Shown here: piece by piece, positions 7,698 through 32,991 of the stretch
Layout of the letters: the number at the start of each line of letters is the position of its first letter
Position numbering within the stretch: the stretch's first letter is position 1
NCBI GenBank assembly: GCA_024510845.1
Contig: JANEMA010000012.1
Location: 1 to 42,921 of the forward strand
DNA length: 42,921 nucleotides
Reading direction: 5' to 3'
Source of the DNA: Gammaproteobacteria bacterium
GTDB lineage: Bacteria > Pseudomonadota > Gammaproteobacteria > Chromatiales > Chromatiaceae
Position numbers and translations under genes: made by a program
Notes under the pieces: model-generated
Databases searched by the model: none
What the model saw: the letters and a program-made list of their open reading frames with translations, nothing else
Told to the model about the DNA's origin: nothing

Positions 7698-7990
7698 GGG
7701 GCTATCTGTATCAAAGTCTCACTCAAGGCCACCCGGATATTGCGGGTCAAGACGCGACTCGCAGGGAATGCAGGCCCTTGCCAAAAGCTGCAACGCAGAG
7801 CCGTGCCACCACCCTGCGAGTGGGCTTCTTGGGCGTCCATCCACTACGTTAGGCCGAGTCGGCAGGGAGTGACCTATGCCTGCGCCGACGAGCTTTGTTG
7901 CTGAACGCCAAGAAACCCGTTGAACGTGGCTTCGATTGGGGTTGTCCTAGTATACTCACCGACTGGAAGCGTTTGGGAGGATTATCATCG

Positions 7991-8806
7991 ATGTCACGCC
8001 TGCTCTGGCCTTTGTTGTCCGCACTGCTACTCGGCGGCTGCTCCTTTCTGCAAGACAAGGACGAGACCAAGGGCTGGAGTCAGCAGAAACTCTATACCGA
8101 GGCACAGGCCGAGCTGACCACCGGCAACTACGATCGCGCCATAGATCTGTACGAAAAGCTCGAGGCCCGTTATCCCTTCGGAAAATACGCCCACCAGGCC
8201 CAACTCGACGTGGCCTATGCGTATTACAAGGCAGAAGAACCTGAATCAACGCTGGCCGCGGCCGACCGCTTCATCAAGTTCCATCCAAGCCACCCAGCGG
8301 TGGCCTATGCCTATTACCTGAAGGGGTTGGTCAACTTCAATCGCTCGCTGGGCTTTCTCTCGCGCTTCCTGCCCACCGATCTCTCGCAACGCGATGCCGG
8401 CGCGGCGCTGGATTCGTACAAGGACTTCAAGGAGGTGGTCGAGCGATTTCCCGACACCGATTATGCCGAGGATGCACGCAAGCGCATGCTCTACCTGCGA
8501 AACAACCTGGCCCGCCAGGATGTGCACGTGGCGCGTTACTACATCAAGCGAGGGGCCTTCGTGGCGGCGGCCGAGCGCGGAAACCACGTCATCGAGAACT
8601 ACCAGCGCACCCCGGCGGTGAAGGATGCCCTGGAGGTGATGATTGAGGCCTACACGCATCTCGGCCTGAACGATCTGGCAAACGATACCCGGCGGGTTCT
8701 GGCACTCAATCTGAAAAGCGGTGCCATCATCCCCGATCCCCGGGAACTCAAAGAGAAGTCTTGGTCGCGCACGCTCTGGGACTACTTCGGCCTGGACAAG
8801 AACTGA
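7991..8806 (+). CDS. bamD: Outer membrane assembly lipoprotein BamD
   Basis: 271 residues. The N-terminus MSRLLWPLLSALLLGGC is a lipoprotein signal peptide with lipobox LGGC, so Cys17 becomes the lipidated first residue. The mature part is five tetratricopeptide repeats (for example AELTTGNYDRAIDLYEKLEARYPFG), as in BamD/ComL. It is an essential component of the Bam complex that inserts beta-barrels into the outer membrane. The ATG at 7991 has GGGAGG about 10 bases upstream. It is divergent from rluD, as in E. coli. Confidence 0.95.
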   Translation: MSRLLWPLLSALLLGGCSFLQDKDETKGWSQQKLYTEAQAELTTGNYDRAIDLYEKLEARYPFGKYAHQAQLDVAYAYYKAEEPESTLAAADRFIKFHPSHPAVAYAYYLKGLVNFNRSLGFLSRFLPTDLSQRDAGAALDSYKDFKEVVERFPDTDYAEDARKRMLYLRNNLARQDVHVARYYIKRGAFVAAAERGNHVIENYQRTPAVKDALEVMIEAYTHLGLNDLANDTRRVLALNLKSGAIIPDPRELKEKSWSRTLWDYFGLDKN

Positions 8807-8902
8807 CACCAAGCACGCCCCAACAGACTCGATGTCCTGCCGGGGCATAGTGACTGGAACCGAACGCTCCCAACGATTCCCCGGCGGCCCCTGAGCAGAT
8901 AT

Positions 8903-9429: not shown

Positions 9430-11028
9430 TCAGCAACCATTGACGATGGGGTATCGCCAGTCGCGGCCAAAGGCGCGCGCGGTGATCTTGATACCGGGCG
9501 CAGCCTGGCGGCGCTTATACTCGGCACGCAAAATCAGCCGCGTCATGCGCTCCACCTCCTCGCGGTCGAAACCCGTGGACGCCACGATTTCATCGACCGA
9601 CTCGTTACGTTCAACGAAGCGTTCGATGATCTCGTCGAGCACCTCGTAGGGTGGAAGGCTGTCGGTATCCTGCTGATCGGGCCGCAGCTCGGCCGATGGC
9701 GGGCGGGTGATGACCCGTTCGGGGATCACCTCAGTCTCCCGGTTGCGCCAGCGCGCCAACGCGAAGACCAGGGTCTTGGGTACATCTTTGATCGGCGCAA
9801 AACCACCGTTCATGTCGCCGTAGAGGGTGGCATACCCCACCGACATCTCGCTCTTGTTACCGGTAGTCAGAAGCATGCGCCCGCTCTTGTTGCTGATCGC
9901 CATCAGGAGCAGGCCACGAATGCGCGCCTGGATGTTTTCCTCGGTTACGTCCATCGGACTGTCGGCGAAGGACCCGGCCAGCATGTCCAGCAGGGCTTGG
10001 AAGGCCGGTTCGATGGGAATGCTCAGGTAATCCACGCCAAGACGACGCGCCTGCTCGGCGGCATCGGTGTTACTGATCTCGGCGGTATAGCGCGAGGGCA
10101 TGGACACCACCTCGACATTGTGTGCACCCAATGCATCGACCGCCAGCACCAGAGTGAGCGCTGAATCGATACCTCCGGACAGGCCAAGTACCACGCCATG
10201 AAAACCGCTCTTGCCCACGTAGTCACGCACACCGCAGACCAGGGCACGCCAGACCTCTTCGAGATCATCCAGCCAGGGCGGCAGTGGACGCACCGCGGGG
10301 GCGCCGCCGGCGTCGATATCGAACACCTCGACCGCTTCCTCGAACTGCACACAGCGCAACGTCACCCGTCCGTCGGCTGCACAAACGAAAGAGGCGCCAT
10401 CGAACACCAGTTCGTCCTGACCTCCCACCTGATTCACGTACACCAGCGATACCCCGTGACGCGCAACCAGCTCGCCAACCAGATGCTCGCGCTCACGGAC
10501 CTTACCCCGGTAATAGGGCGAACCGTTGAGCACGAGCACCACTTGCGCGCCCGCAGCCGCAGCCTCTCGCAGCGGAGTATCCACCCAGATATCCTCACAA
10601 ACCGCCAGCGCAAAGCACAGGCCGCCCTGCTCGAACAGACCGATGTCCTCTCCCGCAGCGAAGTAACGCTTCTCGTCGAACACGCTGTAATTGGGCAGTC
10701 CGCGCTTGTGGTATTCGCACAGCAGCTCGCCGTCGCGGATCGCCGCGGCCAGGTTGTAGCGGGCGCTGTCGCGCTCGCCAGGGTAACCCAGCACCAGAGT
10801 GATACCGCACACCTGTTCACGGATGCACGCCAGGGCGACCTCCACCCGTTGCAGGCACTCATGGCGCAACAACAGATCCTCCGGCGGGTAGCCGACCAGC
10901 GTCAGTTCGGGGAACACCACCAGGTCTACCCCCTCGGCAGCCAGGCGGTTGGCCAGCTCGATGACGCGCTCGGCATTGGCCTCGATGGCACCAACCATCA
11001 GGTTGAGCTGGGCAATGGCGAGCTTCAT
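9430..11028 (-). CDS. nadE: Glutamine-dependent NAD+ synthetase
   Basis: 532 residues in two domains. The N-terminal nitrilase-type glutaminase has the catalytic triad Glu41 (FPELTLVGYPPEDLL), Lys108 (YHKRGLPNYSVFDE) and Cys144 (CEDIW). The C-terminal synthetase has the ATP P-loop SGGIDS at 284-289 and GNKSE. It amidates nicotinic acid adenine dinucleotide using ammonia from glutamine, the last step of NAD synthesis. The start at 11028 lies four bases after the sucD stop, so it is co-transcribed with sucCD. Its pairing with glnB is common and fits a link between nitrogen status and NAD. Confidence 0.95.
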   Translation of the reverse strand: MKLAIAQLNLMVGAIEANAERVIELANRLAAEGVDLVVFPELTLVGYPPEDLLLRHECLQRVEVALACIREQVCGITLVLGYPGERDSARYNLAAAIRDGELLCEYHKRGLPNYSVFDEKRYFAAGEDIGLFEQGGLCFALAVCEDIWVDTPLREAAAAGAQVVLVLNGSPYYRGKVREREHLVGELVARHGVSLVYVNQVGGQDELVFDGASFVCAADGRVTLRCVQFEEAVEVFDIDAGGAPAVRPLPPWLDDLEEVWRALVCGVRDYVGKSGFHGVVLGLSGGIDSALTLVLAVDALGAHNVEVVSMPSRYTAEISNTDAAEQARRLGVDYLSIPIEPAFQALLDMLAGSFADSPMDVTEENIQARIRGLLLMAISNKSGRMLLTTGNKSEMSVGYATLYGDMNGGFAPIKDVPKTLVFALARWRNRETEVIPERVITRPPSAELRPDQQDTDSLPPYEVLDEIIERFVERNESVDEIVASTGFDREEVERMTRLILRAEYKRRQAAPGIKITARAFGRDWRYPIVNGC

Positions 11029-28984: not shown

Positions 28985-29854
28985 GTGTCCCACGGCAACC
29001 CCTCCATACCTACCAGCTTCCGCAGGGCTCGTGAACGTGACCTCCACAAGATCTCGTTGCCGCCTGAATGCCTCAAGATTCTGCAAATTACCGACACGCA
29101 CCTGTACGCCGACACGAACTCGCAGCTGTTTGGCGTCAACACACTGAACAGCTTCCGCAATACCCTCAGCACTTTCCGTTGCACCGGCTGGCAACCGGAC
29201 TTGGTGCTGGCGACCGGCGATCTGGTACACGATGCCAGCCCCGATGGCTACCAGCATCTGGCCAGACTGCTCGACGAATTCAACTGCCCGGTCTGTTGCC
29301 TGCCCGGCAATCATGACCTGCCCGATGTCATGCTCGAGCACCTGCGGGGCAGGCATGTCTCCTGTCCCCAGGTGGTCGATCACAAGGGATGGCGGCTGGT
29401 GCTGCTCGACTCGGTACTCACCGGCCAGGTGGGTGGTCACCTGGCGGAATCACAGCTCGAGCTGCTGGATGGTGGCCTGCGCGAACATGGCGGCCCGGTG
29501 CTCGTCAGCCTGCACCACCAGCCCGTCCCGGTGGGCAGCCACTGGATCGATGACCTGGGGCTGGACAACGCCGACGCCCTGCTCGAGCGCGTCACCACCC
29601 ATCCCCAGGTCAAGGGCCTGCTGTGGGGACATGTGCACCAGCTCTTCGACAAGCGCCTCGACGGCATACGCCTCCTGGGCACCCCCTCGACCTGCGTGCA
29701 ATTCACCCCCTCGGTGGACGAGTTCAGTGTCGATCAGCAGCAACCGGGCTTCCGCCTGCTGGCGCTGATGCCCGACGGCGAGATCCTCACCGAGGTATTG
29801 CGCACCCGCCACCTTCCACACGGGCTGGAAGTGACCTCCGCCGGTTACGAATAA
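28985..29854 (+). CDS. cpdA: 3',5'-cyclic-AMP phosphodiesterase CpdA
   Basis: A 289-residue calcineurin-like metallophosphoesterase. The metal-binding motifs appear in order: ITDTHLY, GDLVHD, GNHD, and GHVHQ near the C-terminus. Family members hydrolyse cAMP and so limit CRP signalling in the cytoplasm. The GTG at 28985 has AGAAGGA upstream; the conserved domain begins at about residue 28, so a shorter start is possible. Divergent from oxyR and convergent with the hlyD-type gene, with three bases between stops. Confidence 0.85.
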   Translation: MSHGNPSIPTSFRRARERDLHKISLPPECLKILQITDTHLYADTNSQLFGVNTLNSFRNTLSTFRCTGWQPDLVLATGDLVHDASPDGYQHLARLLDEFNCPVCCLPGNHDLPDVMLEHLRGRHVSCPQVVDHKGWRLVLLDSVLTGQVGGHLAESQLELLDGGLREHGGPVLVSLHHQPVPVGSHWIDDLGLDNADALLERVTTHPQVKGLLWGHVHQLFDKRLDGIRLLGTPSTCVQFTPSVDEFSVDQQQPGFRLLALMPDGEILTEVLRTRHLPHGLEVTSAGYE

Positions 29855-29857
29855 TCT

Positions 29858-30646
29858 CTACCAGAAGACGCGCACCGGCAGGCCGGCACGCACTTCCAGG
29901 TCCGCCGGATACTCCACCACCACCGCCACGGGGATGCATGCCTCGCCCTCCCCGGCCTGGCGTCGTGCCTCGAGGCCAGCCACGATGTCACGCACCGGCA
30001 GGCGCCGCCCGGCCAGTTCGACATGCAGCGCCTGCGCAGCTTTCAACGCATCCAGCGTCGCCGCGTCCACCCACAGGCGTACCCGAAACTGGTGATCGTC
30101 GGCCAACACGAGCAACTCCGGCACCACCAATGTTCCGTTCACCGCCTGACCCGGCCGCGCATCGACCCGCACCACCAGGCCATCGAACGGCGCCTCGAGC
30201 ACGCTGTGCGCCAGGGCACGCGCGGCACGCGCCCGATCGGCCTCGGCACCGGCCACCACCGCCTTCGCCTCGAGCAGGCCAATATGCGCCACGACGCGCT
30301 CGTGTTCGGACAGCACGGTCTGCTCGTACAGGTCCTCGGCACGCTCGAATTCGCGTTGAGCCTCCTCGAGCCTGGCCTGCGCCAGTTGCAGACGCCCCCG
30401 CGCCGCCGCCAGATCGGCCTTCTGCGCCCGTCGGTCCAGTGCCAGCAGCAATTCGCCACGGCGTACCCGCTGCCTGGGAACGACACGAACTGTCTGGATC
30501 ACTCCAGGCTCGAGGACTCCCAGGGTTACCTCACGGTTCCATTCCAGGGTGCCGACCAGTTCCCCCGCCCACGACAGGGGGACGACACCCAGCCACAACC
30601 ATACCAACGACAGCCAGCACATACGCCGGACATTTCCCGGTTTCAT
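29858..30646 (-). CDS. HlyD/MFP-type periplasmic adaptor
   Basis: 262 residues with a signal peptide (cleavage after PLSWA), a lipoyl-like half (GVIQTVRVVPRQRVRRGELLLALD), a coiled coil of about 70 residues (QKADLAAARGRLQLAQARLEEAQ...) and the second lipoyl half (EAPFDGLVVRVDARPGQAV). It belongs to the membrane-fusion proteins that bridge an inner-membrane pump and TolC. It is shorter than most (350-400), lacking much of the membrane-proximal domain. It overlaps the tolC-type gene by four bases. No pump gene is beside it, so the partner is unknown. Confidence 0.85.
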   Translation of the reverse strand: MKPGNVRRMCWLSLVWLWLGVVPLSWAGELVGTLEWNREVTLGVLEPGVIQTVRVVPRQRVRRGELLLALDRRAQKADLAAARGRLQLAQARLEEAQREFERAEDLYEQTVLSEHERVVAHIGLLEAKAVVAGAEADRARAARALAHSVLEAPFDGLVVRVDARPGQAVNGTLVVPELLVLADDHQFRVRLWVDAATLDALKAAQALHVELAGRRLPVRDIVAGLEARRQAGEGEACIPVAVVVEYPADLEVRAGLPVRVFW

Positions 30647-31929
30647 GGCAAATCCTCCAGCAGCTCTCCGGTCATGGCCCGCAGACGGGCCTCGTTGAGG
30701 GCCCAGTCGAAGCGGACCTGCGCCATCTTCAGACGCACCTCCGAGATTCGCACCATGGCATCCCCCAGGTCGGTCTTGATCTCTTGCTCGTACAGGGCGC
30801 GACTGTGATCGAGATACAGGTCACGATAGTCTTCCTCGCCCTGCAGGCTCTTCAGTTCTGCGGCCAGGGTCTCGCGCGCCAGCCAAGCCTCCAGCGCCTG
30901 CTGCCGCACCTCCTGCAAACCAGCCTGCCAGGCTGCCTGCGCACGGGTCAACGCTGCCTCGGCCCGAACGACGGCCGCCTCGCGCCGCCCGGCATCGAGC
31001 AAGGGCCATTCGACGTGCACCCCCCCGGCCAGCGGGTGGGTGGAGCCGGTACGGCGATGCCAGGCGCCGGCCTCGACCCGCGCACTCAGTACCGGACCCC
31101 GGCTGGCCCGCGCTGCCGCCAGCACCGCGCGTGCTGCACGCAGCTCGGCAACCAGCGCCCGCAGGCGAGGATGACACTCGCGCACCTGGTCCCAGAAAGT
31201 CTCGAACGTTTCGCCGGATGGCGCCTCCACTTCGATGTCCGGCATCACCAGTTCCGAAGACAGCTCGCCGGGACGTCCCAGGACCAGCGCCAGGCGGGAA
31301 CGCACGGTACGCTGCCGCGCGGCACTGCGCAGCTGGGCACGGTGGGCCTCCTCGTAACGGCTCTCCAGCGCCAGCAGGTCGAGAGCCGAGAGCTGCCCCA
31401 GCTCGAGCCGATCACGCTCCCCGTCCAGGCGAACATAGGCCACGGACATGGCCTCGTTGTCACGCGCAAAGGCCAGATCGGCGAGCAGGACATCGTAGAA
31501 GGCCTGCATGATGGCCAGCGCCTGTTCCTGACGCGCCGCACGCACCCGCCACTGCCCGGCTTCCAGTCGCGCCTGCGCTGCCGTTTCCCGGGCCGTGGAA
31601 TATCCGGCATCATAGAGCCGCTTCTCCAGAAGCAGGTGAGCCAGGCTGCCGTTATGGTCCTGATTCGTCGCCAGCGATGAAGGCTGGATGAGTCGCAACT
31701 CGCCCCCCAGCGTCAGGTGCACTCCCTCCAGCGCCGCGCTCTCGCGCACGGCGGCCACACCGGTCATGCGCTCGGCCTCGGCCTGGAGCCGCCGGGGCAC
31801 CTGATCACGTGCCAGGCGCAGGGCATCGGCCAGCGCCATGGGCTCGGGCAAGGACTCACCGGCCACGGCTGCCAGCGATAACGCTCCCAGCAAGTACAGA
31901 CCCAGCAGACACCACCAGCGCATACTCAA
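30643..31929 (-). CDS. TolC-family outer membrane efflux protein
   Basis: 428 residues with an N-terminal signal peptide (ALSLAAVAGES) and two long repeats of amphipathic helices typical of the outer-membrane factor family (ALRLARDQVPRRLQAEAERM near the start, AEAALTRAQAAWQAGLQEVR later). It would form a trimeric channel-tunnel across outer membrane and periplasm. It overlaps the HlyD-type gene and the upstream thioredoxin-like gene by four bases each, so all are translated together. Substrate unknown. Confidence 0.85.
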   Translation of the reverse strand: MSMRWWCLLGLYLLGALSLAAVAGESLPEPMALADALRLARDQVPRRLQAEAERMTGVAAVRESAALEGVHLTLGGELRLIQPSSLATNQDHNGSLAHLLLEKRLYDAGYSTARETAAQARLEAGQWRVRAARQEQALAIMQAFYDVLLADLAFARDNEAMSVAYVRLDGERDRLELGQLSALDLLALESRYEEAHRAQLRSAARQRTVRSRLALVLGRPGELSSELVMPDIEVEAPSGETFETFWDQVRECHPRLRALVAELRAARAVLAAARASRGPVLSARVEAGAWHRRTGSTHPLAGGVHVEWPLLDAGRREAAVVRAEAALTRAQAAWQAGLQEVRQQALEAWLARETLAAELKSLQGEEDYRDLYLDHSRALYEQEIKTDLGDAMVRISEVRLKMAQVRFDWALNEARLRAMTGELLEDLP

Positions 31930-32477
31930 TGCTCCCGCCTGCGCATCCGTCGCTTGTAGCGTGCGAACGATTCCTCCCGGTAGGCCCGTTCCACCACGTA
32001 ACGCCCCAGTAACAGGAACTCCTTCTTGTTGCGCGTGGCGCCGGTGTAGCGTGCCCGTCGAATGTACTTGCCATCGAGATCGAAGAAGGCGAAAACCGGC
32101 GTCGCGCGCACTCGGTACTGGCGGAAGGAGAAGTCTTTCATGGTCGTGGAATGCCCCTGAAAATCAACCACCTCGACACCCCCCTCGATATCTATCGCGA
32201 TATTGATGAAATGCTGCCGAAAGTACTCCTGCACCTCCGATTGATTGAGCACCATCTGGCGCATACGGTGACAAAACGGGCATTCATCCATTTCGAACAT
32301 GATGAGAATGCCCTGCTTGCCCTGCTCGCGGGCATTGGCCAGTTCCTCCTTCAGGTCCCAAAAGGTCTCGTTGAAGAAATACTGGTCGGGATCGCGGCCC
32401 GGCTGGGCCAGCGCCGTCCCAACCAGCAGGCAATACCACAACCACCCGACCAACACGCGTTTACCGAACCGACCCAC
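31926..32477 (-). CDS. Periplasmic thioredoxin-fold protein with CPFC active site
   Basis: 183 residues. Residues 1-24 form a signal peptide (GTALA cleavage). The thioredoxin-like domain has the active site Cys66-Pro-Phe-Cys69 in FEMDECPFCHRM and a cis-proline region RATPVFAFFD. It resembles SoxW/DsbC-like or thioredoxin_7 proteins that handle disulfides in the periplasm. CPFC differs from the CGPC of cytoplasmic thioredoxin. The tail is unusually basic (RYKRRMRRREH). Second gene of a four-gene operon starting with tlpA-like. Confidence 0.82.
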   Translation of the reverse strand: MGRFGKRVLVGWLWYCLLVGTALAQPGRDPDQYFFNETFWDLKEELANAREQGKQGILIMFEMDECPFCHRMRQMVLNQSEVQEYFRQHFINIAIDIEGGVEVVDFQGHSTTMKDFSFRQYRVRATPVFAFFDLDGKYIRRARYTGATRNKKEFLLLGRYVVERAYREESFARYKRRMRRREH

Positions 32478-32481
32478 CGAG

Positions 32482-32991
32482 CTACCCCCCTGGCGCGTGC
32501 TCCGCGCTCGCCTGTTCTTCGTAATGTTCGATGAAATCCTCGATATCCCCGGCAGACACCGGCCCCACCTGGCGTGCCACCACCTTGCCCTGGGGCGAAA
32601 TCAGGTATGAGGTGGGCAGACCGTGAATGGGAGCGAGCAGCTGATCGTGCTCGGGACGCGCGCCCGCCAGCAGGATGGGATAAGACAGGAACTGCTCTTC
32701 CACGAAGATGGCGAGTTCCTCCTTGCCGATATCCTCGATGTTGACCCCCAGCACAACCCGCTCTTCATCGGAGCCCGCGTAGAACGATTCCAGCTCCGGC
32801 ATCTCCTCGCGGCACGGCGGACACCAGGTGGCCCAGTAGTTGACCAGCACCCACTTCCCCCGGTAATCGGAAAGACGATGTATCTTGCCATTCAGATCTG
32901 ACAGAGCAAAATCCGTACTGGCCCACGCCAACCCCGCCAGACACCAGAGCAGCGACGCACTCGGGAGCCAACTTCCACGCAATCTCTTCAT
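32482..32991 (-). CDS. TlpA/ResA-like thiol-disulfide oxidoreductase
   Basis: 169 residues, exported (hydrophobic N-terminus, cleavage near LAWAS). The redox motif WCPPC (Cys57, Cys60) in VNYWATWCPPCREEMPELE is characteristic of the TlpA/ResA family, which reduce periplasmic disulfides, for example during cytochrome c or copper-centre assembly. The ATG at 32991 has GGAGGG eight bases upstream. First gene of the operon with a second thioredoxin-fold protein, TolC-type and HlyD-type genes. Confidence 0.87.
   Translation of the reverse strand: MKRLRGSWLPSASLLWCLAGLAWASTDFALSDLNGKIHRLSDYRGKWVLVNYWATWCPPCREEMPELESFYAGSDEERVVLGVNIEDIGKEELAIFVEEQFLSYPILLAGARPEHDQLLAPIHGLPTSYLISPQGKVVARQVGPVSAGDIEDFIEHYEEQASAEHAPGG

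Follow-up and report, generated by a model that had tools for sequence, protein, structure and literature searches.

Can an outer-membrane channel and a periplasmic adaptor serve a cell without an inner-membrane pump of their own, and what are two thioredoxins doing beside them? These questions are raised by four co-directional genes on the minus strand (32991–29858) of the 42,921-nt stretch of DNA analysed here (contig JANEMA010000012.1, positions 1–42,921; hereafter, the window); they encode two thioredoxins (one TlpA/ResA-like, one with a CPFC motif), a TolC-type channel and an adaptor of the HlyD/AcrA type. The genome to which the window belongs comprises 1.87 Mb in 72 contigs.

Gene content and layout of the operon

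The tlpA/resA-like gene (32482–32991) encodes a secreted thioredoxin of 169 aa with a WCPPC active site (Pfam AhpC-TSA, 7e-20) and is separated by 4 nt from a GTG-initiated gene (31926–32477) for a SoxW-like secreted thioredoxin of 183 aa, with a CPFC motif and a cis-proline (Thioredoxin_2, 5e-18). The tolC-like gene (30643–31929) encodes an outer-membrane channel of ~428 aa with two OEP repeats (PF02321, 2.3e-29); read from TTG 31929, it overlaps the CPFC gene by 4 nt, while from ATG 31923 it follows after a gap of 2 nt. The hlyD/acrA-like gene (29858–30646) encodes a short adaptor of 262 aa (HlyD_3, 3.7e-8; RND_mfp, 1.3e-29, over the cut-off), and its start overlaps the tolC stop by 4 nt (30643–30646). 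A convergent cpdA-like gene on the plus strand (28985–29854) ends 3 nt short of the hlyD stop. No RND, ABC or MFS gene linked to the operon was found in the window. The ORFs, junctions and Pfam matches thus bear out the sequence-only reading, which had described a four-gene operon with overlaps of four bases or nearly so, bordered by convergent cpdA and with no local RND, ABC or MFS gene. An outer-membrane factor of the OEP/TolC family, a feature of tripartite efflux and type I secretion, is present; an inner-membrane RND, ABC or MFS pump gene, which also defines these systems, was not found with the operon in the window or in 53 relatives whose downstream sequence extends for 2 kb or more.

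Conservation of the operon across relatives

A Chromatiaceae bacterium, Thiobius, tubeworm symbionts and MAGs of Sedimenticola are among the nearest named relatives. All four genes occur in the same order in at least 36 of 95 distinct CPFC-carrying loci at a strict threshold, and 11 further loci carry the CPFC, tolC and hlyD genes without a tlpA match at that threshold. Of 62 orthologous tolC–hlyD junctions, 41 have the 4-nt overlap. Many genera and families keep both the order of the genes and the length of the adaptor, and conservation this wide means that the operon is not a chance arrangement.

A survey of relatives for the gene order and for a co-occurring transporter had been suggested by the sequence-only reading, which named relatives with a pump gene at the 3′ end as the finding that would refute it. 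We searched with the RND proteins, an MFS exporter and an ABC exporter, all from the window genome, and found no pump in the operon at any of the 53 hlyD loci for which 2 kb or more of downstream sequence was available, indicating that a pump was not lost locally and that the unit itself lacks one; a truncated pump operon is therefore ruled out. The RND fragment seen in L085 is encoded in the other orientation and at a distance of over 3 kb. We are highly confident of the existence of a conserved pumpless gene set and of its link to soxB, described below.

The surroundings and composition of the operon vary. In many relatives, an acylphosphatase gene forms a fifth gene 3′ of hlyD. Members of the Chromatiaceae such as Thiocapsa, Thiohalocapsa and Halochromatium have the CPFC gene but neither tolC nor hlyD with it, although the acylphosphatase and cpdA genes are often still near, and one deep family (L254) has tlpA–tolC–hlyD separate from the CPFC gene. 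At L246 (genome G118, about 7700–8900), a TolC-like ORF of only ~290 aa is followed by no hlyD and then by the acylphosphatase gene, perhaps an operon in decay or one reduced still further. Many relatives share a conserved, divergent gene of ~500–550 aa with no Pfam match (cluster 5; L145:5629–7275 and relatives), located between tlpA and a BrkB-family gene; the window lacks it.

The short adaptor and the channel

Adaptors of the AcrA/MexA type are 360–400 aa long. The adaptor of the window, 262 aa, was called unusually short by the sequence-only reading, and this holds throughout its orthologues (median 257 aa, n=63). The AlphaFold monomer model (mean pLDDT 94.2) comprises a lipoyl domain, a hairpin (residues 73–146) and a beta-barrel, and mature residues 27–262 align to AcrA 53–297 of 397 (VIA-align, 2f1m: Z 17.6, rmsd 2.4, 219 residues). 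The membrane-proximal domain is missing: the protein stops at the equivalent of AcrA residue 297 of 397, and the length of ~257 aa throughout the 63 orthologues matches this. The model also resembles the MacA fold (Z 17.1). An RLS motif is present at the hairpin tip (R102, L106 and S113; triad complete in 37/45 orthologues) and, together with the RND_mfp match and the model, identifies a hairpin-tipped periplasmic adaptor. Judged by eye, the adaptor N-termini resemble cleavable signal peptides with A-x-A sites, and no anchor is apparent. The closest non-operon adaptors that we examined sit with MacB-type ABC genes (ATPase and permease), and the short adaptor may have arisen from adaptors of this type.

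Further reduction is seen in five genomes of two deeper families, one of which has genomes of 1.4–1.6 Mb. Here, mini-adaptors of 158–179 aa are encoded 3′ of the same CPFC–tolC genes (L249:9542–10081, L250:5764–6240, L244:9379–9879, L245 near 9904–10455 and L258 near 10043); from their lengths and Pfam matches, they apparently consist of the lipoyl domain and hairpin without the beta-barrel.

The tolC-like orthologues have a median length of 432 aa. No cysteine is conserved in the channel or in the adaptor, and a role of the thioredoxins as folding helpers of either protein was therefore rejected.

The two secreted thioredoxins

In the tlpA-like protein, C57 and C60 are invariant in 36 orthologues. 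It has the AhpC-TSA/Redoxin fold with WCxxC that is a feature of TlpA/ResA proteins, and it scores under the curated cut-offs for ResA (91 of 170 bits, 7e-26), TlpA (73 of 230) and DsbE.

The CPFC protein has C66, P67 and C69 invariant in 57 orthologues, and its model (pLDDT 95.7) resembles DsbD-gamma. The family profile matched a protein encoded beside soxV in the soxYZAXB cluster of L236 with 99 % probability (hhalign), and in the sox region of L237 a homologue with 40 % identity is encoded 5 kb from soxB, directly before a gene for a YeeE-type sulfur transporter. On this profile match and the predicted thioredoxin fold with its CxxC motif, we assign the CPFC protein as a homologue of SoxW. 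SoxW is reduced by SoxV in vivo (Appia-Ayme and Berks 2002, as cited in PMC10451225). The L236 homologue adjoins soxV, whereas the CPFC gene of the window lies outside the sox cluster of its own genome with no soxV beside it; conversely, no soxW- or soxV-like gene was seen around that genome's soxB (L238).

The window genome also encodes CPFC paralogues with two tandem thioredoxin domains, at L169:3431–4684 (contig C18) and on the minus strand of L174 (contig C46), with CPYC and CAYC in the first domains and CHEC and CHAC in the second. The SoxW-like paralogue at L169 adjoins an MFS gene and an RND–adaptor pair. A selenocysteine flag at an in-frame stop in some CPFC genes proved to be just the terminal stop or upstream sequence. 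A search for annotated SoxW among plasmids returned only distant thioredoxins, the sole one with annotated neighbours lying near DsbD-type and cytochrome c maturation genes.

Co-occurrence with sulfur oxidation

We assessed the distribution of the operon in a class-wide sample of 369 genomes, counting a genome as a CPFC carrier at a match with E below 1e-40 (97 genomes). soxB was present in 91/97 carriers versus 61/272 non-carriers (odds ratio 52), and by family in about 50 of 51 carrier families versus 29 of 131 others, counts that were tallied by hand from family codes, the highest code being assumed to give the overall number of families (182). The link to dsrA was weaker (67/97 carriers versus 51/272 non-carriers). 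A strong hlyD orthologue was present in 77 genomes, each of which also carries the CPFC gene. A specific link to incomplete Sox pathways (no soxCD) was rejected, as soxC occurred in 7/44 carriers and 9/36 soxB-bearing non-carriers (p 0.40). The link between the operon and sulfur oxidation is well supported, although the association with soxB could reflect a sulfidic habitat instead of the pathway. Of the sequence-only proposal that these genes form an envelope system for thiol-containing or metal-bound material, the thiol part gains support from the placement of the CPFC protein in the SoxW group and from soxB co-occurrence; nothing points to metal.

Published data touch on the same components. 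According to a study of a vent snail symbiont (PMC4949241), SoxW is common in gammaproteobacterial sulfur oxidisers, although what it does there is not clear. Genes for TolC and HlyD rise on S0 in Sulfurovum (PMC10045233), and the Riftia symbiont proteome contains TolC and SoxW (PMC7787665); in both cases, the genes concerned may differ from those of the present operon.

A proposed role and its alternatives

The gene set suggests a sulfur- or thiol-related route out of or into the cell envelope. We propose that both secreted thioredoxins, the TlpA/ResA-like and the SoxW-like CPFC protein, would act on periplasmic thiols, most likely freeing sulfur carriers such as SoxYZ of wrong disulfides or stripping sulfane sulfur, by analogy with SoxS/SoxW (PMC10451225). 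The TolC-type trimer and the short adaptor would join tip to tip via the adaptor hairpin, which carries the RLS motif, and the adaptor would open the channel from the periplasmic side with no dedicated pump clamped, because it has no membrane-proximal domain and, as judged by eye, no anchor. The pair may then act as an adaptor-gated, presumably passive conduit between the periplasm and the outside. We infer both its cargo and the direction of movement; the cargo would be small sulfur species handled by the two thioredoxins (polysulfide, sulfane sulfur or low-molecular-mass thiols/disulfides). A precedent for passive opening is provided by the adaptor MtrC, which opens the channel MtrE into a passive pore through which vancomycin enters (PMC8277102).

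In favour of this mechanism are the gene order kept without a pump, the 4-nt overlaps, the uniform adaptor and its match to AcrA 53–297 only, the mini-adaptors of the deeper families, the soxB link, the presence of the CPFC gene wherever a strong hlyD orthologue was found, the homologues in sox clusters and the lack of conserved cysteines in channel and adaptor. Against it stand the RND genes of the carriers and the channel-less RND–adaptor pairs of the window genome, both considered below, and the Chromatiaceae, which retain the CPFC gene but not tolC and hlyD. The mini-adaptors are also awkward for it because the MtrC hairpin by itself does not open its channel (PMC8277102). Taken as a whole, a mechanism in which the operon is an accessory module of Sox-type sulfur oxidation is plausible, if a little short of an even chance. 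We are more doubtful of the specific form in which channel and adaptor lacking the membrane-proximal domain make a two-part conduit across the outer membrane, with no inner-membrane pump; here, thioredoxins of the SoxW/TlpA type would load the conduit or keep it reduced, and sulfane sulfur or thiols would move through it in the service of Sox-type oxidation.

The main competitor is a pump encoded elsewhere, as the sequence-only reading had allowed, with the channel and short adaptor joining an unlinked inner-membrane pump, for example as the second adaptor in a mixed hexamer as in TriAB–TriC. This reading draws support from the window genome, in which four RND permeases each have their own full-length adaptor gene but none has a channel gene, and in which only two OEP proteins are encoded, so the operon channel could serve these pairs; moreover, RND genes were present in all 25 carrier genomes tested, which keeps the reading alive, the RND type of contigs C6 and C9 has a counterpart with 55–56 % identity in the 1.4-Mb genome G166, and both channel sharing and double adaptors are known (PMC8277102). 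Of the adaptors examined, those nearest to that of the operon, with their MacB-type ABC neighbours, could point the same way. However, every RND of the window genome is already supplied with a full-length adaptor, the RND types differ with none common to all genomes examined, and membrane-proximal domains, which are essential for RND assemblies (PMC8277102), are missing from the operon adaptor everywhere, with the beta-barrel apparently gone too in some lineages, which weakens the reading. A MacB-type partner fares no better: the window genome appears to have no MacB-type pump, its only MacB-domain protein scoring weakly (71.6 bits), and G166 likewise has a single match, which resembles LolC/E and adjoins LolD. 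A single orphan RND common to carriers was also rejected, as the G166 orphan shares only 26 % identity with its nearest RND counterpart in the window genome. We regard a shared pump as a real possibility, though somewhat short of probable.

An unlinked partner of another kind, an inner-membrane transporter (MFS or other) that has no periplasmic domains, would account naturally for an adaptor with no membrane-proximal domain, as this domain is missing in adaptors of such transporters (PMC8277102), and an MFS gene adjoins the two-domain SoxW-like paralogue on contig C18. Yet such adaptors usually have an N-terminal membrane anchor (PMC8277102), in contrast to the cleavable-looking signal peptides seen here, and no relative examined has a linked MFS gene, making this unlikely. 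Slightly less likely still is that two uncoupled functions share one promoter, with tlpA and the CPFC gene in Sox thiol repair and the channel and adaptor in general efflux. The persistence of the CPFC gene alone in Chromatiaceae and the separate tlpA–tolC–hlyD set of L254 fit this reading, but the order and tight overlaps are kept across many families, and none of the CPFC-less genomes in the 369-genome sample yielded a strong hlyD orthologue. For the proposed conduit, the same two exceptions indicate that the redox part is useful without it.

Two of the RND genes deserve mention. The orphan RND permease gene of G166 (L279:8323–11385), a complete 1.4-Mb genome with a mini-adaptor operon, has no adjoining adaptor or channel gene, and contig C9 of the window genome encodes an RND permease of ~1340 aa (L172:1846–5871), 250–300 residues over the usual length; long forms recur in other carriers.

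Significance and comparison with known systems

No description of this operon was found in the open papers searched. Each component belongs to a family already described; their combination, the absence of the domain that contacts the pump and the connection to sulfur appear new to the open literature searched. If the proposed conduit is true, it would be a natural example of a channel–adaptor pair that shed its pump-contacting parts. The operon bears on the passage of reduced and zero-valent sulfur across the outer membrane and on the role of SoxW in gammaproteobacterial sulfur oxidisers; as the SoxW-like gene of many of these organisms shares an operon with genes for a channel and an adaptor without a pump, both questions are open to gene deletion.

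Compared with AcrAB/MexAB-type efflux (AcrA/MexA with TolC/OprM), the operon shares the OEP channel family, the adaptor fold (hairpin, lipoyl and beta-barrel domains) and the RLS tip motif, but it lacks an RND gene, the membrane-proximal domain and, as judged by eye, a lipid or transmembrane anchor, and it adds two thioredoxins. MacAB–TolC is similar in the MacA fold and in the MacB-type neighbours of the nearest non-operon adaptors examined, whereas the present operon has no MacB-type gene and an adaptor shorter by the membrane-proximal domain and, as judged by eye, the anchor. With the SoxV–SoxW and SoxS proteins of thiosulfate oxidation in Paracoccus and Rhodovulum, it has in common the predicted SoxW homology of the CPFC protein, a secreted thioredoxin fold and co-occurrence with soxB; unlike them, the CPFC gene lies outside the sox cluster, has no soxV neighbour and is tied to tlpA, tolC and hlyD. 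Finally, the tlpA-like protein shares its fold family and WCPPC motif with the TlpA/ResA/DsbE oxidoreductases but falls below the curated cut-offs for all three, and no cytochrome c maturation genes adjoin it.
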